This document shows positions 39,911 through 56,541 of a DNA stretch of 56,541 bases, one piece after another. The stretch is from Cytophagaceae bacterium. GTDB lineage: Bacteria > Bacteroidota > Bacteroidia > Cytophagales > Spirosomataceae. Below the pieces are notes generated by a model, which saw only the letters and a program-made list of their open reading frames with translations, searched no databases and was not told where the DNA came from. A program made the translations under genes and the position numbers. Every line of letters begins with the position of its first letter. The stretch's first letter is position 1. The DNA lies in contig JAIXWL010000013.1 in the NCBI GenBank assembly GCA_027491315.1, positions 1 to 56,541 of the forward strand, given 5' to 3'.

Positions 39911-40552
39911 ATGGCAACTGCTTCTACCACCCAGCAATTATTTCAACAATTTGAACCAGAATTACTTAAAAAAGTACAACAGGTAGGATTGGTGCGTAAG
40001 TTTAAAGCAGAGGATTATTTGATGCAAACGGGCCAACAAATCCGTTCGGCGGTATTGGTCTTAGATGGCGTTGTTAAAGTCTTTCGAGAGGATGATGAGG
40101 GTAATGAAGTATTTATGTACAATTTACACCCAGGAGAAGCATGTGCCATTTCTATGACTTGTGCGGCTAGACAACTTTCTAGTCAGATTATGGCCAAAGC
40201 CCTAGTGGATACGGAGGTTTTGGCTATACCCATTGAATTAATGGACGAATGGGCCCTAAAATACCGTTCCTGGTACCAATTTGTCTTAGAAACGTATCGC
40301 TCCCGTTTTGAAGAGCTCTTAGATACGCTTGATCACATTGCCTTCCGCAACTTAGATGAAAGGCTTCTTTGGTATTTAAAACAGCATCAAAAGAGCTTAA
40401 AAAGTAATTTCATCAAAACATCTTTTACTGATATCGCCTTGGAGCTCAACTCTTCACGAGAAGTAATCTCTCGTCTCATGAAAAAATTAGCCGAAAAGGG
40501 CCTAGTTAAATTGCATAAAAATGAGGTGGAGATATTGAAATTAGAAATATAA
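39911..40552 (+). CDS. Crp/Fnr-family regulator, proposed activator of the sulfur island
   Basis: This 213-residue protein has a cyclic-nucleotide-binding-type beta-barrel (about residues 8-115), a dimer helix and a C-terminal winged helix (about 148-213). The recognition helix reads SSREVISRLMKKL. E184, S187 and R188 form the E--SR signature by which FNR/FixK proteins read TGAT half-sites. It lacks the N-terminal FNR iron-sulfur cysteines but has C78 and C84 (C-x5-C) in the barrel, possible thiol or persulfide sensors. TGAT-N4-ATCA palindromes precede the porin gene just downstream and three further intergenic regions of the island. The regulatory link is inferred. Confidence 0.88.
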   Translation: MATASTTQQLFQQFEPELLKKVQQVGLVRKFKAEDYLMQTGQQIRSAVLVLDGVVKVFREDDEGNEVFMYNLHPGEACAISMTCAARQLSSQIMAKALVDTEVLAIPIELMDEWALKYRSWYQFVLETYRSRFEELLDTLDHIAFRNLDERLLWYLKQHQKSLKSNFIKTSFTDIALELNSSREVISRLMKKLAEKGLVKLHKNEVEILKLEI

Positions 40553-40590: not shown

Positions 40591-40634
40591 GTGATTATTA
40601 TCACGCCCCTACTGAGTTAATACATCGAAATTTG
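40591..40634 (+). promoter_or_regulatory. Crp/Fnr-type site and promoter of the porin gene
   Basis: The perfect palindrome GTGAT-TATT-ATCAC (40591-40604) is followed after 22 nt by the -7 box GAAATTTG (40627-40634), 18 nt before the ATG. No -33 TTG is present at the expected place, which fits an activator-dependent promoter with the activator centred near -41. Confidence 0.75.
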
Positions 40635-40652
40635 TTGGCATAAACTAAATAT

Positions 40653-42038
40653 ATGCCATACAAATACCTCATTACCATCATCGTATTTTTCAGTTTTTCA
40701 TGGAAAACGAATGCCTCATATTATTCTGAAGCTACAGATACCACAAGTATTTGGAAAGTACTGAGCTCTGGTAGTATATACACCAATGTTCGCTATTTTT
40801 ATATGAATACAGACAATTCTGGGGACAATTATGACGCCTTTGCACATGGATTAAATATGGGTATTTCGTACGAAACCAAAGCATGGAAAAATTTTAGTTT
40901 TGGAATTAGTAGCCAATGGATGTACAATTTGGGTTCAAGTTCTTTAAGCCCAGACCCTAAATTCCCAATTTTAAATCGCTACGAAATTGGGCTATTTGAT
41001 GTACTTAATCCGCTGTCTACCAACATACTATCTCGTTTGGAAAAGTTATACTTGAATTATACCTACCAGAAATCGAATATAAAAATTGGCCGACAAATCA
41101 TCAATAGCCCTTTTGTAAATGCGCAAGATGGGCGTTTAAGGCCAACGATGCTTTCTGGAATTTGGTTAGATTGGAATGAAATATCGAAAACAAAAATTGA
41201 ATTGGGCTATCTGGGCGCCATTTCTCCCAGAGGTACGACACAATGGTTTAGCATCGGAGAGAGCATGGGTATTTACCCAAAAGGGGTTAATCCTGATGGA
41301 AATAAATCAAATTATTATGGCAACATAGAATCAAAGGGAATTGCCATGCTAGGAATCACTTTAAAACAACTAAAAACCATCAACTTTCAATTTTGGAATA
41401 TGTATGTTGACAGGGTAATGAATACTCACATGCTACAAGCAGATGGGAAATGGCCCTCTAATTTAAAAGGCCAGTGGGTAGGTGGAATACAATATTTAGA
41501 ACAACATGCCCTTGAACAAGGAGGAAATCCAGATCCATCTAAAACATATATGACAGCTGGATCTATGTCAAGATCGTGGGGGGCAAGATTTGGTTGGGAA
41601 AATAAACAATGGAAAACATCCATCAATTTTAATCAAATCACCAACGAAGGACGATATTTAATGCCAAGAGAATGGGGCAAAGATCCATTTTATACCTTTT
41701 TACCAAGGGAAAGAAACGAAGGTTTTGGAAATGTCCATGCCTTTGTAGCCAAAATGGCCTATCAATGGAAGAAAATTCCTCTAAGAACACAATTAGCACA
41801 AGGATATTTTTATTTACCTCCTACACAAGATTTTGTCTTAAATAAATATGCTTTACCTTCTTACGCTCAAACAAATTTGGAATTAAATTTTGAACCCCAA
41901 GGTAAGTGGAAAGGAATGACCCTTTCATTAATTTATGTTCTCAAAAATCAAATAGACGAAAGTAAATTGGCTGACAAATTCGAAATTAACAAAGTGAACA
42001 TGAGTCACATCAATGTTATTTTAAATTATACCTTGTAA
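40653..42038 (+). CDS. OprD-like outer-membrane porin
   Basis: This 461-residue protein has a signal peptide (residues 5-22, ending near TNAS). The rest is rich in alternating aromatic/polar strands (for example SIYTNVRYFYMNTDN and KIELGYLGAIS), ending in INVILNYTL, as expected for an 18-strand barrel. Its size and the segment LYLNYTYQKSNIKIGRQIINSPFVNAQDGRL fit OprD-type porins. It probably lets small anions enter the periplasm. Its promoter carries the best Crp/Fnr site of the region, so thiosulfate or another sulfur anion is a reasonable guess for the cargo. Confidence 0.78.
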   Translation: MPYKYLITIIVFFSFSWKTNASYYSEATDTTSIWKVLSSGSIYTNVRYFYMNTDNSGDNYDAFAHGLNMGISYETKAWKNFSFGISSQWMYNLGSSSLSPDPKFPILNRYEIGLFDVLNPLSTNILSRLEKLYLNYTYQKSNIKIGRQIINSPFVNAQDGRLRPTMLSGIWLDWNEISKTKIELGYLGAISPRGTTQWFSIGESMGIYPKGVNPDGNKSNYYGNIESKGIAMLGITLKQLKTINFQFWNMYVDRVMNTHMLQADGKWPSNLKGQWVGGIQYLEQHALEQGGNPDPSKTYMTAGSMSRSWGARFGWENKQWKTSINFNQITNEGRYLMPREWGKDPFYTFLPRERNEGFGNVHAFVAKMAYQWKKIPLRTQLAQGYFYLPPTQDFVLNKYALPSYAQTNLELNFEPQGKWKGMTLSLIYVLKNQIDESKLADKFEINKVNMSHINVILNYTL

Positions 42039-42170
42039 ATTGTGGACCAATAAGCATAAGGCAACAGCCATGTATAATCCATTGATAATGAATCATATAA
42101 TGCTGATTTCACCTTCTTCTATCATACCTTAATCAAGCTCCCAATTCAATGGTAAATAATTTTCATTGCT

Positions 42171-42214
42171 GTGATAAAAATCACGAATAAGGCCAAAATA
42201 TAGCCTGACATTTG
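42171..42214 (+). promoter_or_regulatory. Crp/Fnr-type site and promoter of tauE-cstB operon
   Basis: The perfect palindrome GTGAT-AAAA-ATCAC (42171-42184) is followed after 22 nt by the -7 box GACATTTG (42207-42214), 26 nt before the ATG. The spacing is identical to that at 40591. Confidence 0.78.
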
Positions 42215-42240
42215 TATCAACAAAAAAGAAAAAATAAGTC

Positions 42241-43062
42241 ATGGAAATAATCGGATACTTTGCCTCATTACTCATTGGAATCTCGTTGGGACTCATTGGA
42301 GGAGGTGGATCCATTTTAACAGTACCAGTTTTGGTCTACTTGTTCGGTATTAATCCTGTATTAGCAACGGCCTATTCCCTATTCATTGTAGGAGCAAGTA
42401 GCTTAGTAGGAGCTTTTCCTAAATACCAACAAGGTTTAGTGAATCTAAAGACGGCTATTATTTTTGGTATTCCTTCTATTGTTTCGGTTTATGCCACGCG
42501 CAAATTCATCGTACCATTAATTCCAACAGATATATTTCAAATAGGGGATTTATTGATTACCAAATCCATTTTAATGATGGTGCTCTTTGCCATTTTAATG
42601 GTTGCCGCTTCCATATCCATGATACGTGGCAAATGTGAAAATTGTGGAAAAGAAGGAACAGAGGAACTAGAACTAAAAGAACAAACGTTTAATTATCCAG
42701 TGATTATTTTGGAAGGTAGCGTAGTTGGCTTATTAACCGGATTAGTAGGTGCTGGTGGTGGATTCTTGATTATTCCTGCTTTAGTTGTTCTCTCCAAACT
42801 ACCCATGAAACAGGCCGTAGGAACTTCATTACTTATCATTGCTATGAAATCACTGATTGGTTTCACCGGTGATTTAGGACATCAAGAAATCAATTGGAAC
42901 CTGCTGTTAACCATCACAGCATTAGCCATAGCAGGCATATTTGTTGGAGATAAATTCAGTAAGAAAGTAGACAGTGATAAACTAAAAAGAGGCTTTGGAT
43001 GGTTCGTGTTAATTATGGGTGTATATATTCTCATTCAACAATTAGCCTTCCCCTTAAAATAA
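42241..43062 (+). CDS. tauE: TauE/SafE-family sulfite/sulfur-anion exporter
   Basis: This 273-residue protein has about eight membrane segments in two similar halves. Each begins with a glycine-rich motif: GISLGLIGGGGSILTVPVLVY and VVGLLTGLVGAGGGFLIIPALVV. The soluble loop between them carries a CENC pair (C132, C135), which could bind metal or sulfane sulfur. In the staphylococcal cst operon a TauE protein sits beside CstB and is thought to export sulfite or related anions. Here it lies 48 nt before the CstB-like gene, under its own Crp/Fnr-type promoter. Confidence 0.9.
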   Translation: MEIIGYFASLLIGISLGLIGGGGSILTVPVLVYLFGINPVLATAYSLFIVGASSLVGAFPKYQQGLVNLKTAIIFGIPSIVSVYATRKFIVPLIPTDIFQIGDLLITKSILMMVLFAILMVAASISMIRGKCENCGKEGTEELELKEQTFNYPVIILEGSVVGLLTGLVGAGGGFLIIPALVVLSKLPMKQAVGTSLLIIAMKSLIGFTGDLGHQEINWNLLLTITALAIAGIFVGDKFSKKVDSDKLKRGFGWFVLIMGVYILIQQLAFPLK

Positions 43063-43110
43063 GTCATTAATTAATTGAAAACATTAGCAAAACAACATAC
43101 TATTAAAGAA

Positions 43111-44529
43111 ATGAAAGTAGAACAAATTTATACCGGATGTTTAGCACAAGGTGCCTATTACATTGAAAATAACGGCGAAGCAGCCATCATTGATCCTTTA
43201 CGTGAGGTTGAACCTTATATCCAAAAGGCAGAGCGCAATGGTGCTAAAATCAAATACGTTTTTGAAACTCACTTCCATGCGGATTTTGTTTCTGGCCACA
43301 TTGACTTATCTGCTAAAACAGGTGCTCCCATTGTTTATGGTCCCAATGCTGCCTGTGCCTTTGATTGTATTTCGGCTACGGACGGACAAGAATTCCCTCT
43401 AGGAAATGCTACTATCCGAGTGATACATACACCAGGACATACCATGGAAAGTACTTGCTTTTTATTGATTGATGCGCATGGCAAAGAAACTAGTTTGTTC
43501 TCGGGTGATACTTTATTCATTGGTGATGTAGGTCGGCCAGATCTAGCACAAAAAGTAAAGGCAGATTTAACAGAAGATATTTTAGCGGGTCATTTATTCG
43601 ATTCTTTACGAAATAAAATCATGCCATTAGCCGATGATATCATCGTTTACCCAGCGCATGGCGCGGGTTCAGCATGTGGAAAAAACATGAGTAAGGAAAC
43701 CACGGATACTTTGGGTAACCAAAAGAAGACAAACTATGCTTTGAATCCTGAATTGACCAAAGAACAATTCAAAAAAGAAGTTTTAACCGGTTTAGTGGCT
43801 CCTCCATCCTATTTCCCTTTGAATGTATTGATGAATATCCAAGGATATGACAGTATAGATAAGGTATTGGAAAGAGGTCAACATGCTTTATCTCCTGAGG
43901 CTTTTGAAGCAGCAGCCAATGAGACAGGCGCTTTAATTTTAGATACACGTGATCCTCAGACATTTACTAAAGGATTTGTACCAAATGCCATCAACATCGG
44001 AATCGATGGATCCTTTGCTCCTTGGGTAGGTGCCATGATTCCAGACATCAAGCAAGAAATCTTGTTGATTACGGATGAAGGACGTGAAGAAGAGGTTATT
44101 ACCCGTTTAGCCCGTGTGGGATATGATTTTACCATTGGCTATTTGAAGGGTGGATTTGAGGCTTGGAAAGCAGCAGGAAAAGAAGTGGATAGTATTGAAT
44201 CCATCACAGCAGAAGAAGTGGCAAAACGTTTTGCAGCTGGTGAAGGTGAGATTTTAGACGTCCGCAAGAACTCAGAATATTTGAGCGAGCATGTCAAAGA
44301 AGCGGAAAATGCACCTTTGGACTTCATCAATGAAAGTATGTTGAAGATCGACAAAAACAAAACTTACTTTGTGCACTGCGCAGGGGGCTATCGTTCTATG
44401 ATTTTCAATTCTACCCTTAGAGCTCGTGGATACCACAATTTAGTGGATGTTAATGGAGGCTTTAAAGCCATCAAAGAATCAGAGAAGTTTCATATCACGG
44501 ACTATGTTTGTCCATCAACCTTATTGTAA
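43111..44529 (+). CDS. CstB-like persulfide dioxygenase fused to two rhodanese domains
   Basis: This 472-residue protein has an N-terminal ETHE1-type metallo-beta-lactamase domain (about 1-245) with HFHADFVSGH (H54, H56, D58), TPGH (H110) and SGDT (D133). It oxidises persulfide to sulfite with O2. A degenerate rhodanese domain follows (about 270-360), with Asp322 in TDEGREE where Cys is expected. The active rhodanese domain (about 375-460) has HCAGGYRS with C423, and a further Cys sits in the tail VCPSTLL. This three-part layout is that of CstB. I chose ATG 43111 because it fits the family start; an upstream TTG is rejected. Confidence 0.9.
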   Translation: MKVEQIYTGCLAQGAYYIENNGEAAIIDPLREVEPYIQKAERNGAKIKYVFETHFHADFVSGHIDLSAKTGAPIVYGPNAACAFDCISATDGQEFPLGNATIRVIHTPGHTMESTCFLLIDAHGKETSLFSGDTLFIGDVGRPDLAQKVKADLTEDILAGHLFDSLRNKIMPLADDIIVYPAHGAGSACGKNMSKETTDTLGNQKKTNYALNPELTKEQFKKEVLTGLVAPPSYFPLNVLMNIQGYDSIDKVLERGQHALSPEAFEAAANETGALILDTRDPQTFTKGFVPNAINIGIDGSFAPWVGAMIPDIKQEILLITDEGREEEVITRLARVGYDFTIGYLKGGFEAWKAAGKEVDSIESITAEEVAKRFAAGEGEILDVRKNSEYLSEHVKEAENAPLDFINESMLKIDKNKTYFVHCAGGYRSMIFNSTLRARGYHNLVDVNGGFKAIKESEKFHITDYVCPSTLL

Positions 44530-44531
44530 TC

Positions 44532-44813
44532 ATGAATATTCAAGAATTGATACAAAACCCCAAGACCAATATCATTGACGTACGTGAAATTGGAGAGTTC
44601 ATGCAAGGGCATTATGAAGGAGCTATCAATATCCCTTTAGGAACGATTCCAAATCAATTGGAAAAATTCAAAAGTATGGAAGGTCCCATCATTGTGTATT
44701 GTCGAAGCGGAAATCGCTCAGGCTTAGCCCAGACCATGCTTAAGCAAATGGGCTACCAAGACGTATACAATGGAGGTGCCCTACAAGATATATTGGTTTA
44801 TTCTAATAACTAA
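44532..44813 (+). CDS. Single-domain rhodanese
   Basis: This 93-residue protein is one rhodanese domain with DVREIGEFMQGHYEGAINIP and the active loop YCRSGNRSG (C57). It has no signal peptide, so it works in the cytosol, moving sulfane sulfur between carriers such as glutathione or coenzyme-A-like thiols and enzymes. The ATG at 44532 lies two nt after the CstB-like stop, so translation is probably coupled. Confidence 0.9.
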   Translation: MNIQELIQNPKTNIIDVREIGEFMQGHYEGAINIPLGTIPNQLEKFKSMEGPIIVYCRSGNRSGLAQTMLKQMGYQDVYNGGALQDILVYSNN

Positions 44814-44817
44814 GCCC

Positions 44818-45066
44818 ATGTGGAGCGCACTCAAACAACCGTGGGATTTAATGCGTATAGCTCGCCTGACTATGGGGGGCTATGCGCTATATGAATCCAT
44901 CCAAACCAGAGAAATCTTTTTAGGATTATTAGCTGGCGTCCTTTTGATACAAGCTGTATTTAATTGGGGCTGTGGTGCTCAAGGATGTAATGTTCCGACA
45001 TATTCAAAAAAATCAAACGCTAAAAACACCGAAGAAACGGAATATGAAGAAGTTCATTCAAAATAA
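44818..45066 (+). CDS. Small DUF2892/YgaP-like membrane protein with CxxxxC pair
   Basis: This 82-residue protein has two hydrophobic segments (about 13-28 and 32-50). Right after the second is NWGCGAQGCNVP with C52 and C57. It resembles the membrane part of YgaP-type rhodaneses (DUF2892), which here would be separate from the soluble rhodanese four nt upstream. A hydrophilic acidic tail follows. It may dock the rhodanese at the membrane or move sulfur or electrons. The last 23 nt overlap the next gene in another frame. Confidence 0.75.
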   Translation: MWSALKQPWDLMRIARLTMGGYALYESIQTREIFLGLLAGVLLIQAVFNWGCGAQGCNVPTYSKKSNAKNTEETEYEEVHSK

Positions 45067-45250
45067 TCGATTAGCCCTTTTAGGTTCCCTATTGGGTGGA
45101 ATTGCAGGGTATTTCTATTGGCAACAAATTGGATGTAGTACGGGGACTTGCCCTTTAACATCCAAGCCTTTGAACAGTACCTTGTATTTTGCCTTCTTAG
45201 GTTATATTTTTAGTGGATTTTTTACCAACAAAAAAACAGCAGAGGAATAG
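45044..45250 (+). CDS. Small DUF6132-like membrane protein with CxxxxC pair
   Basis: This 68-residue protein has two membrane helices (about 9-27 and 46-61) joined by QQIGCSTGTCPLTSKP with C31 and C36. This GC-x4-C-P phrase is what I recall for DUF6132. It overlaps the previous gene by 23 nt, so the two are translationally coupled. Both have a cysteine pair with the same C-x4-C spacing. Function unknown; a membrane-bound sulfur or redox relay is possible. The stop codon touches the start of a heptad repeat array. Confidence 0.72.
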   Translation: MKKFIQNNRLALLGSLLGGIAGYFYWQQIGCSTGTCPLTSKPLNSTLYFAFLGYIFSGFFTNKKTAEE

Positions 45251-45397
45251 TGGTTAGTGTTTAGTGATTAGTGGTTAGGGATTAGGGATTAGTGTTTAGG
45301 GATTAGGGATTAGTGTTTAGGGATTAGGGATTAGTGGTTAGGGATTAGGGATTAGTGGTTAGGGATTAGTGGTTAGGGATTAGGGATTAGTGGTTAG
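45250..45397. repeat. Direct TTAGnnn heptad array after the cst-like operon
   Basis: About 20 heptads of the forms TTAGGGA, TTAGTGT, TTAGTGG and TTAGTGA begin at the stop codon of the upstream gene. This is the first arm of an inverted pair; the complementary-strand arm is at 45524-45672. The 447-nt gap to the next gene holds only these arrays and a 126-nt spacer, with no ORF. The spacer has a weak Crp/Fnr-like site, ATGAT-AAAA-ATCAA (45398-45411). Confidence 0.9.
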
Positions 45398-45523
45398 ATG
45401 ATAAAAATCAAAACACAAAGAAATGTAATTAAACACTGGACATTAAAAAGAACAAATCAGCTAGTGCATTCAGTCCTTTTAAAAAGTAGACAGTTTTAAA
45501 CTAATTACTTAGTATTTAATAAA

Positions 45524-45672
45524 TAAACTCTAATAACTAATAACTAAACTCTAATAACTAAACTCTAATAACTAAACTCTAATAACTAAACTCTAATAAC
45601 TAAACTCTAATAACTAAACCCTAATAACTAATAACTAAACCCTAATAACTAATAACTAAACACTCATAACTA
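45524..45672. repeat. Inverted CTAAnnn array (14-bp compound unit)
   Basis: Units AACTCTAATAACTA repeat with a 14-bp period (two heptads, CTAATAA and CTAAACT) on the plus strand, degrading at both ends. Read on the other strand they are TTAGnnn heptads, so the array is inverted relative to 45250-45397. It ends 25 nt before the YeeE-like start codon. Confidence 0.9.
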
Positions 45673-45697
45673 AAAAAAAGCTTACCATTATAAAACC

Positions 45698-46261
45698 ATG
45701 ATACAAACCATTTCTCAACCCTGGCCATGGTACGTGGCGGGGGCCTTAATCGGCTTAATCGTACCGGCTTTATTACTTCTAGGCAATAAGCATTTTGGCA
45801 TATCTTCTAATTTGAGGCATATTTGTGCCGCTTGTTTTCCGAGTAATATTTCCTTTTTCAAATACGAATGGAAAAAAGAAACTTGGAATTTATACTTTGT
45901 AGGTGGAATTTTGATAGGTGGCTATTTGTCTGCTACTTTATTAGGCTCAAATGAGCCAATCATTATTCACCCTGATTTGGCCAATGAATTAGCTACTTAT
46001 GGTATAACCGACTTTTCTGGATTAGTACCAGTGCAGTTATTTTCCTTTGAAAATTTATTCACAGCCAAAGGATTAATTATGATGATCGGCGGCGGATTTT
46101 TAGTCGGTTTTGGCACTCGATATGCAGGAGGATGTACTTCAGGACATGCCATCATGGGATTAAGTAATCTTCAATGGCCATCCCTAGTGGCGACAATCTG
46201 CTTCATGGTAGGTGGATTCATCATGGCCAATTTCATTTTACCTTACATTCTTAGCCTTTAA
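45698..46261 (+). CDS. YeeE/YedE-family sulfur transporter, N-terminal-half type (PmpA-like)
   Basis: This 187-residue protein has about five membrane segments. It carries the family motif GTRYAGGCTSGHAIMGLSN with C146, and GGILIGGYLSA near the middle. YeeE/YedE proteins import thiosulfate or pass sulfane sulfur through conserved cysteines. Here the protein is half-size and pairs with the gene five nt downstream, as in PmpA/PmpB systems found with sulfide-responsive operons. A further Cys pair lies in HICAACFPS. Its promoter is unclear because repeats occupy the upstream 450 nt. Confidence 0.88.
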   Translation: MIQTISQPWPWYVAGALIGLIVPALLLLGNKHFGISSNLRHICAACFPSNISFFKYEWKKETWNLYFVGGILIGGYLSATLLGSNEPIIIHPDLANELATYGITDFSGLVPVQLFSFENLFTAKGLIMMIGGGFLVGFGTRYAGGCTSGHAIMGLSNLQWPSLVATICFMVGGFIMANFILPYILSL

Positions 46262-46266
46262 TCACC

Positions 46267-46776
46267 ATGGAAAATAAAAAAGTAGTTCATAGCAACCCAG
46301 TCGATTTTGAAGTAAGATCATTAGATGCCATGTGCATCAATGAATCTGAATTAAAGCACCCTTGGTGGTATAATTTTAAGTATTTGGCCGTAGGCTTAGT
46401 TTTTGGTATTGTTTTCGTAAAGGCCGAGATTATTTCTTGGTTCAGAATTCAAGAGATGTTTCGTTTGCAAAGCTTCCACATGTATGGCGTGATTGGAACC
46501 GCCGTAGTGGTAGGGGCTATTTCTGTATTTTTAATCAAGAAATTCAATGTGAAAACCATTCACGGAGAGGATATTACTTTCACGGATAAAAAGTTTAACA
46601 AAGGACAAATCTACGGAGGCTTGATGTTCGGATTTGGTTGGGCTATCACAGGTGCTTGTCCTGGCCCCCTATTTGCTCAATTAGGCACCGGAGTATTATC
46701 CATTTCAGTGGTTATTTTAAGTGCCATTGCTGGTACTTGGGTATACGGTAAGTTTAGGGATCAATTACCTCACTAA
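46267..46776 (+). CDS. YeeE/YedE-family sulfur transporter, second half (PmpB-like)
   Basis: This 169-residue protein has about four membrane segments. The signature is FGFGWAITGACPGPLFAQLGTG with C131, the second half of the YeeE/YedE motif pair. It lacks a signal peptide. It should form the complete transporter with the preceding protein. Together they would move thiosulfate or a similar anion across the inner membrane to the cytosolic rhodaneses. A strong terminator follows 20 nt after the stop. Confidence 0.88.
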   Translation: MENKKVVHSNPVDFEVRSLDAMCINESELKHPWWYNFKYLAVGLVFGIVFVKAEIISWFRIQEMFRLQSFHMYGVIGTAVVVGAISVFLIKKFNVKTIHGEDITFTDKKFNKGQIYGGLMFGFGWAITGACPGPLFAQLGTGVLSISVVILSAIAGTWVYGKFRDQLPH

Positions 46777-46795
46777 TGATATACTTGGTCTAATA

Positions 46796-46835
46796 AAAAA
46801 GAGGGATTCCGACTTTCATCGAAATCCCTCTTTTT
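46796..46835. terminator. Bidirectional intrinsic terminator
   Basis: AAAAAGAGGGATT and AATCCCTCTTTTT form a 13-bp stem with a 14-nt loop and A/T tracts. It closes the YeeE/YedE operon (+) and can also serve the soxB-like gene (-), which ends at 46910. Confidence 0.9.
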
Positions 46836-46909
46836 ATTTTAATTAAATTTAAATGTCGAAAGTAATTAAAGAAGTTACCTAAGGCTAATGCTTTAGTGTA
46901 TTTATGCTT

Positions 46910-48580
46910 CTACCTAAATGTGTAATCCACGCCTGTTACCTGACTTAATAATGATTGTGGCCCATCAAGGATTTTAGCATCATGCCGTAAGGTAGGAGTC
47001 ACTGGAGAGAATTTAGCCAGATACTCTTTCATCATACTGTGCAACGTATAAGCAGTATTTTTGGCTTCCTTTACACCTTTCATACGACAAAGCATATCCT
47101 CAGGATCACCTTCACGTTCACATGCACACAAAACATATAATTTTTCTAACTCCAAAGGAGCACCACCAATGATGACTTTTTGAACGCGATGTCCTACTCG
47201 CTCAAATGCTTTGAATTCCACTTGCATACCTTTAAATCGAATTAACCACCCTCCAAATCGTAAGGAAGCATCCTGTGCAAACACATTTTGTAACTCCTTT
47301 TCTAACCAATTTAAGATTTGTTGGCCTGTTGCTTTCGCTGTTCTAATCGTGGAATCCACAGGTAACATATCATACAAATAACCTTCTGTAATGGCTACTT
47401 TACCATCTTTTCCCGGAACAAGCGGTGGACAAAATCGAAAACCATTAGACAATACCACATCTGCATTTACCTTCCATTTTAAGGCATCTACAATCAAGGT
47501 ATCAATCGTGTTTTCAACCACAAAATTTCGATATAAGGGTAAAGTACTATAACCTATTACTTTATTAATTTCAGTCTTCCATTGGCCCTCCAACTCATTT
47601 ACTAAGGTTAAAATCTCCTTTTTTGCTGGATATTTAATGGGATCTACTTCTACTAATTCGTAAGAGGAACCAGTCAATTTTCCGTTTTTAACATGAATAT
47701 CTAACTTCCCTATGAAAGATCCGAAAGCGCCAGGTTCCACAATCTTTGTATATTCTGCCTGAATCGGCTTACGTACCCGCTCATGTGTATCCGCGCCAAA
47801 AATATAATCGACCCCTTCACAATGAGGATTATTCCCTAATGCAATTTGTTGGGAAAGACCTAAATGAGATAAGATAATAACAAAATCGCATTGCTCTTGT
47901 TCGCGTAATAGCGTCACATATTCTTTTAAATTTTCTTCAGGTTTGGTATATAAAATACCTTTACTGTACAAAGGTGATTGACGAAGAGGAACTAAGGGAT
48001 CCGTATAACCTAAGAAACCAATTTTAATCCCCAAACGATGCATGATTTGATACGGTTGAAAAATCAATTCTCCTTTCTTACCATCACCTAAATCATGATA
48101 CATATTTGCACAAATTTTAGGAGCTAAAAGGCCACCCAATAGTTTTTGCATATTTTTCTTATAATAAACAACTTCCCAGTTTCCGGGTAGATACAAATCA
48201 TAATTCATAGCATTCAACAAGGGAACAAATGCCTGGCCCGTTGTTTTCACCGATAACATGGATCCCTGAAACATATCTCCAGTATCTAACGTAATGGTAT
48301 TTTCAGGATTACCTTGTTTTATTTTGTCTAAGGCCGAGGCCATGTGCGCATATCCACCCGCTTTTCGAAAAACGAGCTCTTCATTCTCCCAAAATAACTC
48401 ATCATGTGCGTGTAATTGACAATGCACATCGGTGGTTTGTAAAATTGTAATTTTACCGGAATCCGGCTTTGCAGGATTGGATTTTGGGGAAGTCAATTTA
48501 GCTTCCAAAGGAGCTAGTGGAGACAATGCGGCGACACTACTTAGTAGCCCACCTTGTAAAAATTTTCTTCTAGAGTTCAT
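46910..48580 (-). CDS. SoxB-like/5'-nucleotidase-family metallohydrolase
   Basis: This 556-residue protein begins with a twin-arginine-type signal (NSRRKFLQGG), as SoxB does. The metallophosphoesterase half has TTDVHCQL (D51, H53), LDTGDMFQGS (D102), GNWE (133-136), SHLGLS (H239) and FGADTHERV (H266). In 5'-nucleotidases the third motif is GNHE or GNHD; a Trp there is typical, as I recall, of SoxB thiosulfohydrolases. A 5'-nucleotidase C-terminal domain follows. It lies 4 nt after the TsdA-like gene. Possible role: hydrolysis of a sulfonate from a sulfur carrier. Nucleotide hydrolysis remains an alternative. I reject a longer start that overlaps tsdA. Confidence 0.78.
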   Translation of the reverse strand: MNSRRKFLQGGLLSSVAALSPLAPLEAKLTSPKSNPAKPDSGKITILQTTDVHCQLHAHDELFWENEELVFRKAGGYAHMASALDKIKQGNPENTITLDTGDMFQGSMLSVKTTGQAFVPLLNAMNYDLYLPGNWEVVYYKKNMQKLLGGLLAPKICANMYHDLGDGKKGELIFQPYQIMHRLGIKIGFLGYTDPLVPLRQSPLYSKGILYTKPEENLKEYVTLLREQEQCDFVIILSHLGLSQQIALGNNPHCEGVDYIFGADTHERVRKPIQAEYTKIVEPGAFGSFIGKLDIHVKNGKLTGSSYELVEVDPIKYPAKKEILTLVNELEGQWKTEINKVIGYSTLPLYRNFVVENTIDTLIVDALKWKVNADVVLSNGFRFCPPLVPGKDGKVAITEGYLYDMLPVDSTIRTAKATGQQILNWLEKELQNVFAQDASLRFGGWLIRFKGMQVEFKAFERVGHRVQKVIIGGAPLELEKLYVLCACEREGDPEDMLCRMKGVKEAKNTAYTLHSMMKEYLAKFSPVTPTLRHDAKILDGPQSLLSQVTGVDYTFR

Positions 48581-48584
48581 TGGT

Positions 48585-49640
48585 TTAGCTTTTCGATTTT
48601 TTATGTTTTTTAATCCAATCCTTGATGGGCTTATAGGGACCAAATTTATGTTGAGATTCTGGGAAAGGATCAACATAAGGACCAAATGGATGATCAAAAG
48701 GCTTAGCTGAAATATCTGGCCAATCTGTAGATAAATCCTTTCCAGGCCTTGGCATGGAATTAATGAAGGCCGCCACATCCCAAGCTTCCTCATCCGTCAA
48801 TTGCGCTTTTTCATAGGTGGTTCCCAAAGGCATGTTGTACTTGACATAGCCTGCTAAATTGGAAATGCGAAACAAGCCCGCTCCTTGATTATAACTGTGC
48901 ATTCCCCATACTGGCGGATAAATATAGGATTTTCCTCCAGCTGCTAATACTCCTTCCCCATTTGCCTGATGACAAGATTGACACTTACTATCATACACCA
49001 TTTTCCCCTTCTCAGGATCTGCGGCGCGTTTCATTGACTTCAACTTAAATATTCCAGCTCCCCTAGGGATTTTTCCTTTTTCAACATCCTGACCTAACCA
49101 AGCTATATAAGCCAATATCGACTGCATTTCTTTACTGGAGGAGTCCAACTTAGCCCCGTTTAAACTACGTTCAAAACAATCATTAACCCGTTTAATTTGA
49201 TTCTCAACAGTACCCGAACGTGCTCGAAACTTGGGATAGGTAGATTCTACAGCAAAATAATTATTCCCCCAAGGCTGAGTGCCCGCCTTCAAATGACAAT
49301 TTTGGCAATTCATGCCATTTGACATAGCTCTAACCGAACCTTTTGGACCCAAATAATCTGAAGTATGCGCTATCAACTCACGACCATAAAGTACCAATTC
49401 CATTTGAGATGCCGATAAATACATCATACGCCAGTCGGAAGGTGCCGTCCAAACATGGGTAAAATTGGTATCAACAGGCACAAATCTGGCCGTCGAATCC
49501 GCTCCTGACAGATCATTCTCTTTTACCTCACGGGGGTCCAAAATCAAATAAATCATTAAGGCAAATAGTACAACAACTAGGCCATATAGGAACCGAATGA
49601 GGGTATCGAATGAATTTAAGCGGGATTGATTTGATTTCAT
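48585..49640 (-). CDS. tsdA: TsdA-like dihaem cytochrome c (thiosulfate dehydrogenase/tetrathionate reductase)
   Basis: This 351-residue protein has one N-terminal membrane segment (about 15-34), so it is membrane-anchored facing the periplasm. Two haem sites are visible: CQNCH (112-116) and CQSCH (220-224). The first domain keeps the TsdA phrase RVNDCFERSLNG with C155, matching the unusual Cys axial ligand of the active-site haem. M270 in KYNMPLG suits the second haem. TsdA joins two thiosulfates into tetrathionate, or the reverse. Its promoter has a perfect TAATTTTG box and a Crp/Fnr-type site shared with the divergent sqr. Confidence 0.87.
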   Translation of the reverse strand: MKSNQSRLNSFDTLIRFLYGLVVVLFALMIYLILDPREVKENDLSGADSTARFVPVDTNFTHVWTAPSDWRMMYLSASQMELVLYGRELIAHTSDYLGPKGSVRAMSNGMNCQNCHLKAGTQPWGNNYFAVESTYPKFRARSGTVENQIKRVNDCFERSLNGAKLDSSSKEMQSILAYIAWLGQDVEKGKIPRGAGIFKLKSMKRAADPEKGKMVYDSKCQSCHQANGEGVLAAGGKSYIYPPVWGMHSYNQGAGLFRISNLAGYVKYNMPLGTTYEKAQLTDEEAWDVAAFINSMPRPGKDLSTDWPDISAKPFDHPFGPYVDPFPESQHKFGPYKPIKDWIKKHKKSKS

Positions 49641-49662
49641 TTTAACATGGGTATTTATAACT

Positions 49663-49736
49663 CAAAATTACTCAGTGCAATTGCCTCGCATAGTGACAAA
49701 TATCACGATTCACTAAGCTTGAATATCCTAATATTA
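49663..49736. promoter_or_regulatory. Shared Crp/Fnr-type site between divergent tsdA-soxB-like and sqr
   Basis: The near-palindrome GTGAC-AAAT-ATCAC lies at 49693-49706. On the minus strand a perfect -7 box TAATTTTG (49670-49663) is exactly 22 nt away. On the plus strand the weaker TAATATTA (49729-49736) is also exactly 22 nt away. One bound dimer could activate both directions. Confidence 0.75.
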
Positions 49737-49759
49737 CATATAATTAAAACAAAATCCAC

Positions 49760-50953
49760 ATGAGAATTCATCATCAAATCATCATCATTGGTGGCGGTAA
49801 TGCGGGTATTTCCGTGGCCAGTCAATTATTGCGCCAGGATTCCAACTTAGATATTGCCTTGATTGATGCAGCAGAGAAACATTATTATCAGCCAGCATGG
49901 ACTTTAGTAGGTGGTGGAGTATTTGACATTCAAAAAACTGTACGAGATGAAGCCTCCGTGATGCCTAAGAAAGTTACTTGGATAAAAGCCATGGTTAGCG
50001 AAGTTCAAGCAGAAAAAAATAAACTAGACTTAAACAATGGGCAATCCATTTATTATGACTACCTCATCGTTTGCCCTGGTATTCAACTCAATTGGTCTGA
50101 AATAAAGGGATTGGAAGAAAGCCTAGGAAAAAATGGGGTTTGTTCGAATTATAGTTTTGAAACAGCTCCCTATACCTGGGAATGTGTCCAATCTTTACCC
50201 AAAAATGGCAAGGCGGTATTTACCAATCCTCCCACTCCCGTAAAATGTGGAGGAGCACCGCAAAAAGTGATGTATATGTCTTCAGACTATTTCAAAAAAC
50301 ATCATAAAGCTGCTCAAGTATCATTTTGGAGTGGAGGAACACGTATTTTTGGAGTTGAAAAATATGAGAAAACACTTAAAAAAGTCATTCAACGCTACGG
50401 TATACAAACCCATTTCTTTGTCAAGTTGGTAGAGATTGAAAAAAAAAAAAAAAAAGCTAAGTTTGTAGGAATTGGAGATAGTAATAAAGATCAAGAATAT
50501 TGGGTAGCATATGACATGATCCATGTGACTCCACCACAATCTGCCCCAGATTTTATTCGAAAAAGCAGCTTGGCAAATGCGGCTGGATGGGTAGAGGTCA
50601 ACAAACATAGCCTTCAACACCTACGATTCCCCAATGTTTTCTCTTGCGGAGACGTAGCAGGAATCCCAGTTTCCAGAACAGGTGCCGCTATTCGTAAACA
50701 AGCACCTGTATTGGTGGCTAATTTACTTTCGCTGATTAAAGGTGAGGATTTGATGGCATTTTACAATGGCTACTCTTCCTGCCCGATTATCACGGGATAC
50801 GGAAAATTAGTCTTGGCCGAATTTGATTACAATAATGTCCCAACGGAGACCTTTCCTTTCGATCAATCCAAAGAAAGGTGGTCGATGTACCAATTAAAAA
50901 CGAAAATTTTACCTTGGTTATACTGGAATGAGATATTACCTGGAAGAATGTAA
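49760..50953 (+). CDS. sqr: Type II sulfide:quinone oxidoreductase
   Basis: This 397-residue flavoprotein starts with the FAD-binding IIIIGGGNAGISVA and ends with the quinone-side tail ETFPFDQSKERWSMY...LPWLYWN, very like human SQOR. The catalytic cysteines are C163 in VKCGGAPQK and C341 in SSCPIITGYGK; both are offset by 38 from the human pair 201/379. It oxidises sulfide to a persulfide and reduces quinone. It is monocistronic and divergent from tsdA. A run of 17 A at 50439-50455 inside the gene encodes EKKKKK and is a possible slippage site. Confidence 0.93.
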   Translation: MRIHHQIIIIGGGNAGISVASQLLRQDSNLDIALIDAAEKHYYQPAWTLVGGGVFDIQKTVRDEASVMPKKVTWIKAMVSEVQAEKNKLDLNNGQSIYYDYLIVCPGIQLNWSEIKGLEESLGKNGVCSNYSFETAPYTWECVQSLPKNGKAVFTNPPTPVKCGGAPQKVMYMSSDYFKKHHKAAQVSFWSGGTRIFGVEKYEKTLKKVIQRYGIQTHFFVKLVEIEKKKKKAKFVGIGDSNKDQEYWVAYDMIHVTPPQSAPDFIRKSSLANAAGWVEVNKHSLQHLRFPNVFSCGDVAGIPVSRTGAAIRKQAPVLVANLLSLIKGEDLMAFYNGYSSCPIITGYGKLVLAEFDYNNVPTETFPFDQSKERWSMYQLKTKILPWLYWNEILPGRM

Positions 50954-51003
50954 AGCAGCTGGAAACCTTGATTGCTTCCAGCTGATAAGAAATAGGAAGT
51001 TGA

Positions 51004-51414
51004 TTATGGTTTCAAGTAGGACCAACCTGCTTCTTGCTTTAAAACCACTTCAGCCACGCCAGAAGGCACAAAACCTGATTGAGGAAGTATAGTTGCTTTA
51101 TCAATTTTATTCATGCGAATGGTATTCTCACAAGCCACAAATGAAACTCCTTTAGCCGCTAATTCTGCAATTTTAGCCTTTTGAGTAGTTTTTGAATCTA
51201 TTAATAAACCAATACCTGAACCATGAGCAACCACTTCAATGGAAGTATTTGGACCCAAGGCGGTTTGAAGATTACCAATATTACGAACCACACCATGCCA
51301 AGCAGTGGTGTCCGAGGTGTTCACCTGAATCACAATTTTGTGAGCAGGCGACTGCGCTAAAGAATGAAAAGTGAATAGTAACGCAAAACCAGAAGTAACA
51401 AGGATTTTTTTCAT
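51004..51414 (-). CDS. Periplasmic DsrE/F-like protein
   Basis: This 136-residue protein has a signal peptide ending near SLAQ. The mature part has the DsrE fold pattern (KIVIQVNTSD, IEVVAHGSGIGLLI, GVSFVACENTIR) with the conserved Cys at C95. DsrE-type proteins carry sulfane sulfur on this Cys. Its export suggests that it accepts sulfur in the periplasm, perhaps from SQR, TsdA or SoxB products. It lies between sqr and a methyltransferase, with which it is divergent across a 34-nt gap. Confidence 0.84.
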   Translation of the reverse strand: MKKILVTSGFALLFTFHSLAQSPAHKIVIQVNTSDTTAWHGVVRNIGNLQTALGPNTSIEVVAHGSGIGLLIDSKTTQKAKIAELAAKGVSFVACENTIRMNKIDKATILPQSGFVPSGVAEVVLKQEAGWSYLKP

Positions 51415-51448
51415 TTTCTAATTTTTTTCGAAAGTAAGCAATCTACAC

Positions 51449-52051
51449 ATGAAAACAATATGGAATTCTCGGTATAACTCAAAAGAATACCAATATGGAA
51501 TTGAACCCAATGATTTTTTAAAAAATCAATTAACCCAATTACCCATAGGCCGCCTACTTGTTCCTGCAGCAGGTGAAGGCCGTGACGCAGTTTTTGCGGC
51601 ACAATTGGGATGGGAAGTATATGCCTTTGATAGCAGTGATACCGCCCAAGGAAAAGCCATTAGGTTGGCGAGTGAAAAGTCTGTTAACCTACATTATGAA
51701 TGCATTGATGCAAACAATGTTAGATATCCATTAGAGTCATTTGATGCAATCGCCTTGGTTTACTTTCATTTACCGCCTGAAGAGCGTAGAAAATTCCATC
51801 AACAATGTATCAAATGGCTAAAACCAGGTGGGAAAATTATCCTAGAAGGGTTTTCTAAAAATCAATTGGGCCTGGATTCTGGCGGACCCAAGGATGTAAA
51901 CATGTTATTTCACCTAGATGAGTTGAAAGTAGATTTTGCTGGATTAAACATAGAATTTTGCCAAGAAAATGCAAGGGTATTAAACGAAGGTCCATTGCAC
52001 CAAGGCAAGGCTTTTGTCCTTGATTTTGTTGCCAGCAAATGTTTCGTTTAA
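51449..52051 (+). CDS. Class I SAM-dependent methyltransferase (thiopurine/TehB-like)
   Basis: This 200-residue cytosolic protein has the SAM motif LVPAAGEGRDAVFAAQLG followed by VYAFDSS, and a later LKPGGKIILEGF. The N-terminal WNSRYNSKEYQYGIEPNDFL is typical of TehB/thiol S-methyltransferase-like enzymes. Within this neighbourhood it might methylate a sulfur compound, for example hydrogen sulfide or a thiol, but that is only context. It ends 79 nt before a rhodanese gene that has its own Crp/Fnr-type promoter. Confidence 0.82.
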   Translation: MKTIWNSRYNSKEYQYGIEPNDFLKNQLTQLPIGRLLVPAAGEGRDAVFAAQLGWEVYAFDSSDTAQGKAIRLASEKSVNLHYECIDANNVRYPLESFDAIALVYFHLPPEERRKFHQQCIKWLKPGGKIILEGFSKNQLGLDSGGPKDVNMLFHLDELKVDFAGLNIEFCQENARVLNEGPLHQGKAFVLDFVASKCFV

Positions 52052-52062
52052 GAAAATCCAAA

Positions 52063-52106
52063 GAGACAATTGTCACGCCAAACAAGTAAAATGGCACGTA
52101 GCTTTG
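52063..52106 (+). promoter_or_regulatory. Crp/Fnr-type site and promoter of rhodanese-thioredoxin pair
   Basis: GAGAC-AATT-GTCAC (52063-52076; one mismatch in the palindrome) is followed after exactly 22 nt by a perfect -7 box TAGCTTTG (52099-52106), 24 nt before the ATG. There is no -33 TTG at the usual distance. The palindrome is the weakest of the four sites by sequence, but its spacing is identical. Confidence 0.68.
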
Positions 52107-52130: not shown

Positions 52131-52433
52131 ATGATCGAATTTCTTAAAAATTTATTGGGTTTAGGCTCCAAGGTAGATGTTGCCGCGCTTATAAAATCTG
52201 GCGCCAAAATAGTGGATGTTCGAACTGCAGCCGAATACAAGCAAGGGCATGTGAAAGGTTCTATCAATCTACCTTTACAAACCTTGGCCAGCAATTTAAA
52301 TAAATTAAAAAAAGAAGATGTTATCATCACTTGTTGCGCCTCTGGTATGCGTAGTGGTGCCGCCAAACGCTTATTGAAATCTCATGGTTTCCAAGAAGTT
52401 CACAATGGTGGAACTTGGATGTCATTAAGATAG
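52131..52433 (+). CDS. Single-domain rhodanese
   Basis: This 100-residue cytosolic protein has a short hydrophobic N-terminus (IEFLKNLLGLG), then KIVDVRTAAEYKQGHVKGSINLP and the active loop CCASGMRSG (C68, C69). The double Cys at the active site is unusual; C69 aligns with the catalytic position. The last part is HNGGTWMSLR. It is 25 nt before a thioredoxin gene, which could reduce its persulfide. Confidence 0.9.
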   Translation: MIEFLKNLLGLGSKVDVAALIKSGAKIVDVRTAAEYKQGHVKGSINLPLQTLASNLNKLKKEDVIITCCASGMRSGAAKRLLKSHGFQEVHNGGTWMSLR

Positions 52434-52458: not shown

Positions 52459-52755
52459 ATGAGCAATTTTTCAGAATTACTAAAATCAGAACAGCCAGTG
52501 CTGGTCGACTTCTCAGCAGAATGGTGTGGACCTTGTAAACAATTAAAGCCTATTTTGGAGCAAGTAAAAGCCAAAATTGGCGATTCCGCAAAAATCATCA
52601 AGGTAGATGTGGACAAAAACCGAAAAACTGCGGAAAAATTCCAGATTCGCTCTGTTCCTACCATGATTCTATTCAAAAATGGTAAATCAGTTTGGCGACA
52701 ATCGGGTGTTATTCCTGCCCATACCTTGGTGGGGATCATTCAACAGTATAGTTAA
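52459..52755 (+). CDS. Thioredoxin
   Basis: This 98-residue protein has the thioredoxin fold with WCGPCK (C23, C26), the KVDVDKNRKTAEKF segment and the cis-Pro in RSVPTMILF. It has no signal peptide. It probably reduces persulfides or disulfides on the adjacent rhodanese and other sulfur proteins. It is co-transcribed with the rhodanese. Its 3' end is followed by a heptad-repeat hairpin. Confidence 0.93.
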   Translation: MSNFSELLKSEQPVLVDFSAEWCGPCKQLKPILEQVKAKIGDSAKIIKVDVDKNRKTAEKFQIRSVPTMILFKNGKSVWRQSGVIPAHTLVGIIQQYS

Positions 52756-52766
52756 ATCAATTTAGA

Positions 52767-52938
52767 GTGAAGAATGTAGAATGTAGAATTATTGCTTATT
52801 TTCAGGTCACTTGACTTAAACAAACTACTAGCTTTTCTTCATTCTTAATTCTACATTCTTCATTCTTCATTCCATTCTACATTCTACATTCTTCATTCTT
52901 CATTCCATTCTACATTCTTAATTCTTCATTCTACATTA
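52767..52938. repeat. Inverted pair of GAATGTA/GAATGAA heptad arrays
   Basis: A short direct array of AGAATGT/AGAATGA units (52767-52790), a 45-nt spacer, and a longer inverted array of ATTCTAC/ATTCTTC units (52836-52938) fill the gap after the thioredoxin gene. AGAATGTAGAATT pairs perfectly with AATTCTACATTCT, so a long hairpin is possible. The inverted arm stops two nt before the next start codon. Confidence 0.9.
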
Positions 52939-56415: not shown

Positions 56416-56416
56416 A

Positions 56417-56541
56417 ATGAAGAATGAAGAATGAAGAATGTAGAATGTAGAATGGGGAATTTTGGGTTAATATTTACTTTTAACTATTTCATCACTTAAA
56501 TATCTATGTGAAATTCTACATTCTCCATTCTACATTCTCCA
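56417..56541. repeat. Inverted pair of GAATGAA/GAATGTA heptad arrays (right end cut)
   Basis: A direct array of GAATGAA, GAATGTA and GAATGGG units (56417-56460) is followed by a 51-nt AT-rich spacer and an inverted array (56512-56541) of ATTCTAC/ATTCTCC units that runs off the window. It repeats the design seen at 52767-52938. Confidence 0.88.

Follow-up and report, generated by a model that had tools for sequence, protein, structure and literature searches.

A Crp/Fnr-family protein as predicted class II activator of sulfur oxidation genes in Bacteroidota

Background

In Escherichia coli, the class II activators CRP and FNR act as dimers centred at about position -41.5. CRP contacts cyclic AMP (cAMP) through R82, T127 and S128, and base contacts in the reading helix are made by Arg180 of CRP and by a Ser of FNR. 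Here we describe a Crp/Fnr-family regulator of 213 aa, encoded at 39911..40552 on the plus strand in a sulfur gene island of a Cytophagaceae bacterium, together with the palindromic sites found in the same island. The whole stretch of DNA that was analysed, referred to as the window, comprises 56,541 nt (contig JAIXWL010000013.1). The regulator and its sites resemble the E. coli systems in domain families, in a helix of the CRP form R-E-x-x-x-R that carries the FNR Ser, in a TGTGA-type palindrome and in the distance to the promoter. They differ in a Bacteroidota -7 box where E. coli has TATAAT, in the loss of the cAMP contacts and in a regulon for sulfur catabolism.

Regulators that respond to reactive sulfur have been described in other protein families. 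In the excerpted text of PMC9774590, FisR of Cupriavidus is an activator of sulfide-oxidation genes that detects reactive sulfur by means of several cysteines, and CstR and SqrR are sulfane-sulfur-responsive proteins that use two cysteines and control sulfurtransferase or sqr genes. Excerpts of PMC10451225 and PMC12423496 likewise present SqrR/BigR and the Hyphomicrobium proteins SoxR/sHdrR as sulfane-sulfur regulators, with thiosulfate-oxidation genes among their targets. FisR, however, is a Fis-family protein acting at sigma54 promoters, unrelated in fold and promoter type, and CstR, SqrR/BigR and SoxR/sHdrR are repressors of the CsoR and ArsR families, whereas the present protein is of the Crp/Fnr family with sites at an activator position. 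A search of the open-licence literature found no description of such a Crp/Fnr sulfur regulator. What appears to be new is the predicted joining of Crp/Fnr class II-type activation to a cysteine-bearing sensor domain and a sulfur regulon.

We propose that the protein serves specifically to activate genes for sulfide, thiosulfate and sulfane sulfur, an explanation that we regard, taken as a whole, as quite probable. We infer that its dimer binds GTGAY-N4-RTCAC centred at -41.5 and that binding activates transcription through contact with RNA polymerase. The promoters lack a TTG at -33, and their -7 box is weak, with G or C frequently replacing the T at -12; transcription from them would hence need an activator of the class II type. 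As signal we envisage a persulfide or another form of sulfane sulfur that would modify Cys78, usually partnered by Cys84, in a degenerate nucleotide pocket. Put in this way, the circuit reduces to testable statements about one protein, a 14-bp palindrome, a distance of 22 nt to the -7 box and two cysteines.

Sites and promoter geometry in the window

The part of the island that holds the sites spans 11.5 kb of a genome of 2.92 Mb in 17 contigs. It had initially been annotated with four palindromes, each exactly 22 nt before a -7 box of the TAnnTTTG type, and this was confirmed letter for letter. Palindrome 1 (GTGATTATTATCAC, 40591..40604), which lies at the predicted centre -41.5 of the porin promoter, is followed after 22 nt by the box GAAATTTG (40627..40634, plus strand). 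Two further palindromes, identified by sequence match, are followed at the same distance by plus-strand boxes: palindrome 2 (GTGATAAAAATCAC, 42171..42184) by GACATTTG (42207..42214) and palindrome 4 (GAGACAATTGTCAC, 52063..52076) by TAGCTTTG (52099..52106). Palindrome 3 (GTGACAAATATCAC, 49693..49706), like the others without a strand of its own, is common to the divergent cytochrome/soxB-like and sqr transcripts. On the minus strand it precedes by 22 nt the perfect box TAATTTTG (49663..49670), and on the plus strand the candidate box TAATATTA (49729..49736) stands at equal spacing, as had been noted, with two mismatches. This plus-strand sqr box is letter-identical and at the same distance in six of eight relatives compared; the other two carry TATTTTTG.

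Measured against GTGAT-N4-ATCAC, two window palindromes are perfect, one is a single letter off and the one at 52063 is three letters off, which calls for a small correction of the initial annotation. Two boxes of the four main sites are perfect TAnnTTTG, and two deviate at the first base only. A TTG at -33, from which the strong promoters had been said to be free, was looked for at the window sites and none was found. Identity between congeners and the window was 95-98% in the half-sites, 80-91% in the boxes and 36-58% in the spacers.

A partial text of a Flavobacterium psychrophilum transcriptome study places TAnnTTTG at -12 to -5 (PMC9723704). With the box in that position, the palindrome centre would fall at -41.5; this centre, predicted from the Flavobacterium box, and the fixed 22-nt spacing support the class II-type geometry suggested at the outset. 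We then compiled 121 non-redundant sites with at most one box mismatch, a selection that limits the number of mismatches and not their place. Mismatches cluster at -12 (T in 42%, G in 30%, C in 25%), and the other fixed letters are kept in at least 93%. A TTG starts at -33 in two of the 121 sites (1.7%) and at -31 in seven (5.8%), and 2453 unselected TAnnTTTG boxes gave about equal values of 2.0% and 4.6%, so that no enrichment of TTG near -33 was found relative to the unselected boxes. A weak -7 box, no -33 element and a site at -41.5 are together what an activator-dependent promoter of class II would be expected to look like.

The spacing recurs across genomes

Across 121 genomes of the family, we searched for GTGAYN4RTCAC followed by TAnnTTTG at gaps of 12-32 nt. 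There were 95 matches, 69 of them at gap 22, three at 21 and two at 23, with a mean of 1.3 matches per gap other than 22; the reversed pattern matched 15 times summed over all gaps. With the gap fixed at 22 and the box relaxed to NAnnTTTG, 123 matches were obtained in 61 of the 121 genomes, compared with two for the reversed pattern.

Loci around relatives of the regulator were also collected (140 fetched). Of 361 distinct strand-sites, 137 had a box with at most one mismatch at gap 22; other gaps averaged 2.7 sites each, with a maximum of 13 at gap 21, and two scrambled boxes gave four and two sites at gap 22. The loci L050-L059 and L113-L126 overlap in genomes, and sites were deduplicated by sequence before the 361 were counted; L066, where tblastn did not find the regulator, is part of this 140-locus site count and was left out of the synteny and residue counts. 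At least one gap-22 site was present in 74 of the 140 loci, the remaining 66 being without any that bears an exact palindrome.

The spacing predicts sulfur genes

Genes downstream of the gap-22 sites were assessed for the 40 of the 69 that lie outside regulator loci already collected. The 29 excluded sites were the window's own, those in or beside regulator loci, one more on the regulator contig of genome G090, and near-copies (G050, G063, G075:614123). A sulfur gene lies downstream of 22 of the 40, the targets being rhodanese (including lactamase and thioredoxin fusions), TauE, SoxA/TsdA cytochrome, YeeE-type transport, OprD porin and YgaP-like membrane protein. The first gene is that of a short YgaP-like membrane protein at L238, L244 and L262, followed at L262 by TauE. 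Both L251 and L262 adjoin weaker regulator hits; leaving them out gives 21 of 38. Three sites with no downstream frame (L249, L252, L258) were scored as non-sulfur, L228, L242, L243 and L251 were without a Pfam hit, and the first frames of L226 and L242, both short, fell outside the Pfam scan.

Matches at other gaps precede a sulfur gene in 3 of 26 cases; eight of these 26 loci had no downstream frame and were scored as non-sulfur, and the other 18 were scanned. The palindrome lay inside a frame of at least 200 codons in 16 of the 26 off-gap matches versus 6 of the 40 at gap 22. From the sulfur-gene counts at gap 22 and off-gap, the regulon is marked by the spacing and not by the palindrome alone, and the spacing tolerates a deviation of about 1 nt. 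The initial annotation was to be given up if the spacing proved equally common before unrelated genes; sulfur genes are instead enriched at gap 22, and motif and spacing together locate sulfur genes across whole genomes. In two congeners (L263, L264) a gap-22 site precedes a protein with a heavy-metal-associated (HMA) domain, a possible link to copper.

The predicted regulon extends beyond the island

Within the bacterium's own genome, GWGAYN4RTCAC matches 19 times, four of them inside the 11.5-kb island. Among the 15 matches elsewhere, one (C8:365776) has a box, TTCCTTTG (at most one mismatch), at gap 22 and stands before a rhodanese gene. The complete site (C8:365746, minus strand, GTGATAAACATCAC-22-TTCCTTTG) abuts the end of the upstream gene and lies 15 nt ahead of the rhodanese gene. 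A scan for the whole 44-nt pattern of palindrome, spacing and box, the check proposed initially, returned 57 strand hits at up to three mismatches compared with 17 for the reversed pattern, and seven of the 57 are island sites. Only four hits have one mismatch, three being island sites and the fourth the rhodanese site (L196). In the loci examined, which cover 30 of the 57 hits, 17 of 19 non-island hits with three mismatches lie within frames of at least 200 codons. The rhodanese site shows that the regulon extends beyond the island; together with the recurrence of the circuit in other families, it led us to reject the initial description of the regulon as private.

Two weaker candidates, C2:241299 (minus strand) and C8:264760, the latter ahead of the gene of a small membrane protein, have half-sites of the TTGAT- or CTGAT-type and were not assigned to the regulon. 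The former (L197, TTGATTTTTATCAG-22-TAGTTTTG) precedes a small Rieske protein, has the same geometry with an FNR-like half-site, and perhaps belongs to another Crp/Fnr protein.

The regulator and its linkage to the sites

Scores of 39.7 bits for PF00027 (cut-off 27.5) and 33.7 bits for PF13545 (cut-off 27), together with the alignments, place the regulator in the Crp/Fnr superfamily. Its recognition helix reads S-S-R183-E184-V-I-S187-R188, in which R183-E184-x-x-S187-R188 aligns with R180-E181...R185 of CRP plus the Ser of FNR. A family sample of 62 sequences was gathered by whole-protein similarity; R183, S187 and R188 occur in all 62 and E184 in 59. R183 and the FNR-type Ser would explain the G of GTGAY in place of the TTGAT of FNR. 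The reading residues had been described as FNR-like (E--SR), and the FNR Ser is indeed there, but a purely FNR-like helix was dropped in favour of R-E-x-x-S-R, as R183, the equivalent of CRP Arg180, is present too. Six proteins with a cNMP domain above cut-off are encoded in the same genome, and the window regulator is the only one with R-E-x-x-x-R and C-x5-C.

Relatives of tauE, cstB or yeeE were present within the fetched stretch in 46 of 59 family loci and in 65 of 80 named loci, six of the 80 named loci having no listed sulfur gene in that stretch. A single site is common to divergent crp and tauE genes at L064 and L065. Of 81 genomes with a regulator hit, 54 contain gap-22 sites, as against 7 of the 40 genomes in which the regulator gave no hit; G013, one of these seven, has a partial regulator match. 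This linkage and the helix, unique in its own genome, favour the view taken at first that the adjacent Crp/Fnr protein is the likely activator, which would bind and activate at these sites.

A search of GTDB genomes gave at least 576 stretches with relatives of the regulator, and 80 of these loci were examined. Among the matches listed, the closest named relatives are from Aquirufa species, and Chitinophaga, Niastella, Flavobacterium and Pedobacter are also represented, and in many of these hits a gap-22 site precedes tauE or cstB; four loci from Niastella and Longitalea (L138, L140, L141, L144) have no gap-22 site. In a sample spread over the phylum, a relative at E 1e-40 was present in 105 of 296 Bacteroidota genomes.

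Sensor domain and candidate signal

Aligned with E. coli CRP, the window regulator has Ser, Leu and Leu at the equivalents of the three cAMP contacts. Leu is the commonest residue in the family sample at the equivalents of T127 (52 of 62) and S128 (54 of 62), and the NCBIfam CRP model scores 38.2 bits against a cut-off of 266. The regulator also differs from FNR: an alignment with E. coli FNR revealed no N-terminal cysteine cluster of the FNR type in it, and the NCBIfam Fnr model scores 21.7 bits against a cut-off of 228.

By alignment, Cys78 and Cys84 are located in what would be the former nucleotide pocket. These cysteines, which the initial annotation had passed over, give the best clue to the signal. 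Cys78 is present in all 62 sequences of the family sample and Cys84 in 53. In a set of 142 sequences, partly retrieved by motifs that hold the cysteines or the helix and so no independent test, the counts were 142 and 132, and seven of the ten sequences without Cys84 carry Cys116, Cys163 and Cys165. The closest solved sequence is PDB 3dv8, a 'transcriptional regulator, Crp/Fnr family' (E 2.8e-32; next 7.5e-14). It shares the C-x5-C, in the same position, and its helix reads R-E-V-I-T-R, with Thr where the window regulator has Ser.

Given a regulon that deals with sulfane sulfur and sulfide, and given that CstR, SqrR and FisR sense these through cysteines in the excerpts cited above, we suggest that the regulator may sense persulfide directly through its cysteines, a guess by analogy to which we give roughly an even chance. 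We advance more tentatively, at somewhat under even, the broader claim that widespread Bacteroidota Crp/Fnr activators sense persulfide or polysulfide directly via cysteines that replace the nucleotide phosphate-binding site, and use class II promoters to drive the oxidation of sulfide and thiosulfate. If this is true, sulfane-sulfur sensing would gain a new protein family in the direct-sensing Crp/Fnr activators; and if sulfane sulfur is indeed sensed by the cysteines, the short list of folds known for this ability would come to include that of Crp/Fnr.

Alternative explanations

The sites were first listed by inspection within one window, and the spacing might be suspected to be a chance pattern picked by eye. 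The same spacing was reproduced in independent genomes and controls, and the gap histogram together with the scrambled-box controls rules out chance as its source, to which we give virtually no weight. The Crp/Fnr protein could also be a repressor with a site overlapping the -35 region, as a dimer at -41.5 covers the place of sigma region 4 and repression is the mode of action of two persulfide regulators, CstR and SqrR, in the excerpted text of PMC9774590. We consider this improbable: with no -33 TTG and a degenerate T at -12, low basal activity is expected, and the spacing is held within about 1 nt, a precision that occlusion would not require but contact with polymerase would. Equally improbable, in our judgement, is that the main reader of the sites is a different Crp/Fnr-type protein, with the island protein incidental. 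A fusion of response regulator, CAP and HTH domains (C9:163591, L110) would be such a reader, being present in the bacterium's own genome and in all four genomes checked among those with sites but no island-type regulator (G014, G042, G079 and G089; L267-L270). Its helix, T-A-T-E-T-V-I-R or similar, has Thr at R183 and Ile at S187 and is without the Arg and Ser predicted to read GTGA, which disfavours it as reader. The remaining four cNMP-domain proteins of the same genome are also without R-E-x-x-x-R, and the sites adjoin the gene of the island protein as well as tracking it across genomes.

A more serious alternative, which we hold to be a real possibility though short of an even one, accepts an activator but has it respond to another signal, for instance NO, a metal, a small ligand or the redox state of thiols. 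Crp/Fnr proteins that act as thiol switches exist, CprK among them, some gap-22 sites precede thioredoxin, peroxiredoxin or ferritin genes, and 3dv8 shares the C-x5-C. On the other side stand the sulfur genes at 22 of the 40 further sites and the position of the regulator, mostly within sulfur gene clusters.

Several observations weigh against a dedicated sulfur activator with two sensing cysteines. No recognised sulfur gene lies downstream of 18 of the 40 further gap-22 sites; these include TetR, response-regulator, ferritin, peroxiredoxin, thioredoxin and HMA genes, besides unscanned or unrecognised ones. The spacing is not absolute, as the three off-gap sulfur genes, all SoxA/TsdA cytochromes, stand at gaps 21, 23 and 21 (L317, L319, L340), and among congeners the cytochrome site of L057 has gap 21 and the boxes of L055 and L056 are decayed. 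Cys84 is missing in 9 of the 62 sequences, some of whose loci keep sites, which means that a mechanism strictly dependent on two cysteines cannot apply throughout. The occurrence of C-x5-C in 3dv8 means that the motif may be older or broader than the sulfur regulon and need not signify sulfur sensing. The listed sulfur genes are absent near the regulator in 10 of 59 family loci, and 27 of the 81 genomes with a regulator hit have no exact gap-22 site. Conversely, G014, G035, G042, G067, G079 and G089 hold gap-22 sites (L225-L234), some before rhodanese, TauE or YeeE genes, and the regulator of this clade was not detected in them. Completeness is 63% for G035 and 71% for G067; the G089 genome, in one contig, has sites ahead of a TauE and a rhodanese gene. 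A PF00027 search of G089, G079 and G014 found no cNMP-domain protein with an R-E-x-x-x-R helix, and one such protein of G079 has R-Q-x-x-S-R at the helix. Either another protein may read such sites in these six genomes, or the regulator has been lost.

Genes of the sulfur island

The positions of the sites support the targets proposed initially: porin, tauE-cstB, the TsdA-like and SoxB-like genes, sqr and rhodanese-trx. Downstream of the regulator gene, the plus strand encodes an OprD-family outer-membrane porin (40653..42038, PF03573), a TauE/SafE-family sulfite exporter (42241..43062, PF01925) and a fusion of a metallo-beta-lactamase of the persulfide dioxygenase type with rhodanese (43111..44529; PF00753 and two PF00581 stretches), which we take to be CstB-like. 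A single-domain rhodanese (44532..44813, PF00581) presumably forms an operon with tauE-cstB. After two small proteins come two half-size YeeE/YedE-type sulfur transport proteins (45698-46261 and 46267-46776, plus strand, PF04143), for which the window scan found no gap-22 site of their own.

On the minus strand lie the genes of a SoxB-like protein (46910..48580; TIGR04486 248.5 bits, under its cut-off of 550) and of a di-domain cytochrome c of the TsdA/SoxA type (48585..49640; PF21342, PF00034). Divergent from these, on the plus strand, is the gene of a sulfide:quinone oxidoreductase-like flavoprotein, type III-like (49760..50953; PF07992; NF049943 210 bits, under the cut-off of 525), and further along come those of a rhodanese (52131..52433, PF00581) and a thioredoxin (52459..52755, PF00085), also on the plus strand.

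A run of 17 A at 50439-50455 falls within the sqr frame. Six congeners have a stretch of equal length that is less repetitive (GATGGACCAGCTAAAAAA-type), and the run may reflect either a tract prone to slippage or an artefact of sequencing. Arrays with a 7-nt period (GGGATTA, TTCTTCA and others) were observed at 2-109, 45244-45402, 45517-45674, 52835-52937 and 56416-56541, and both contig ends fall in such arrays.

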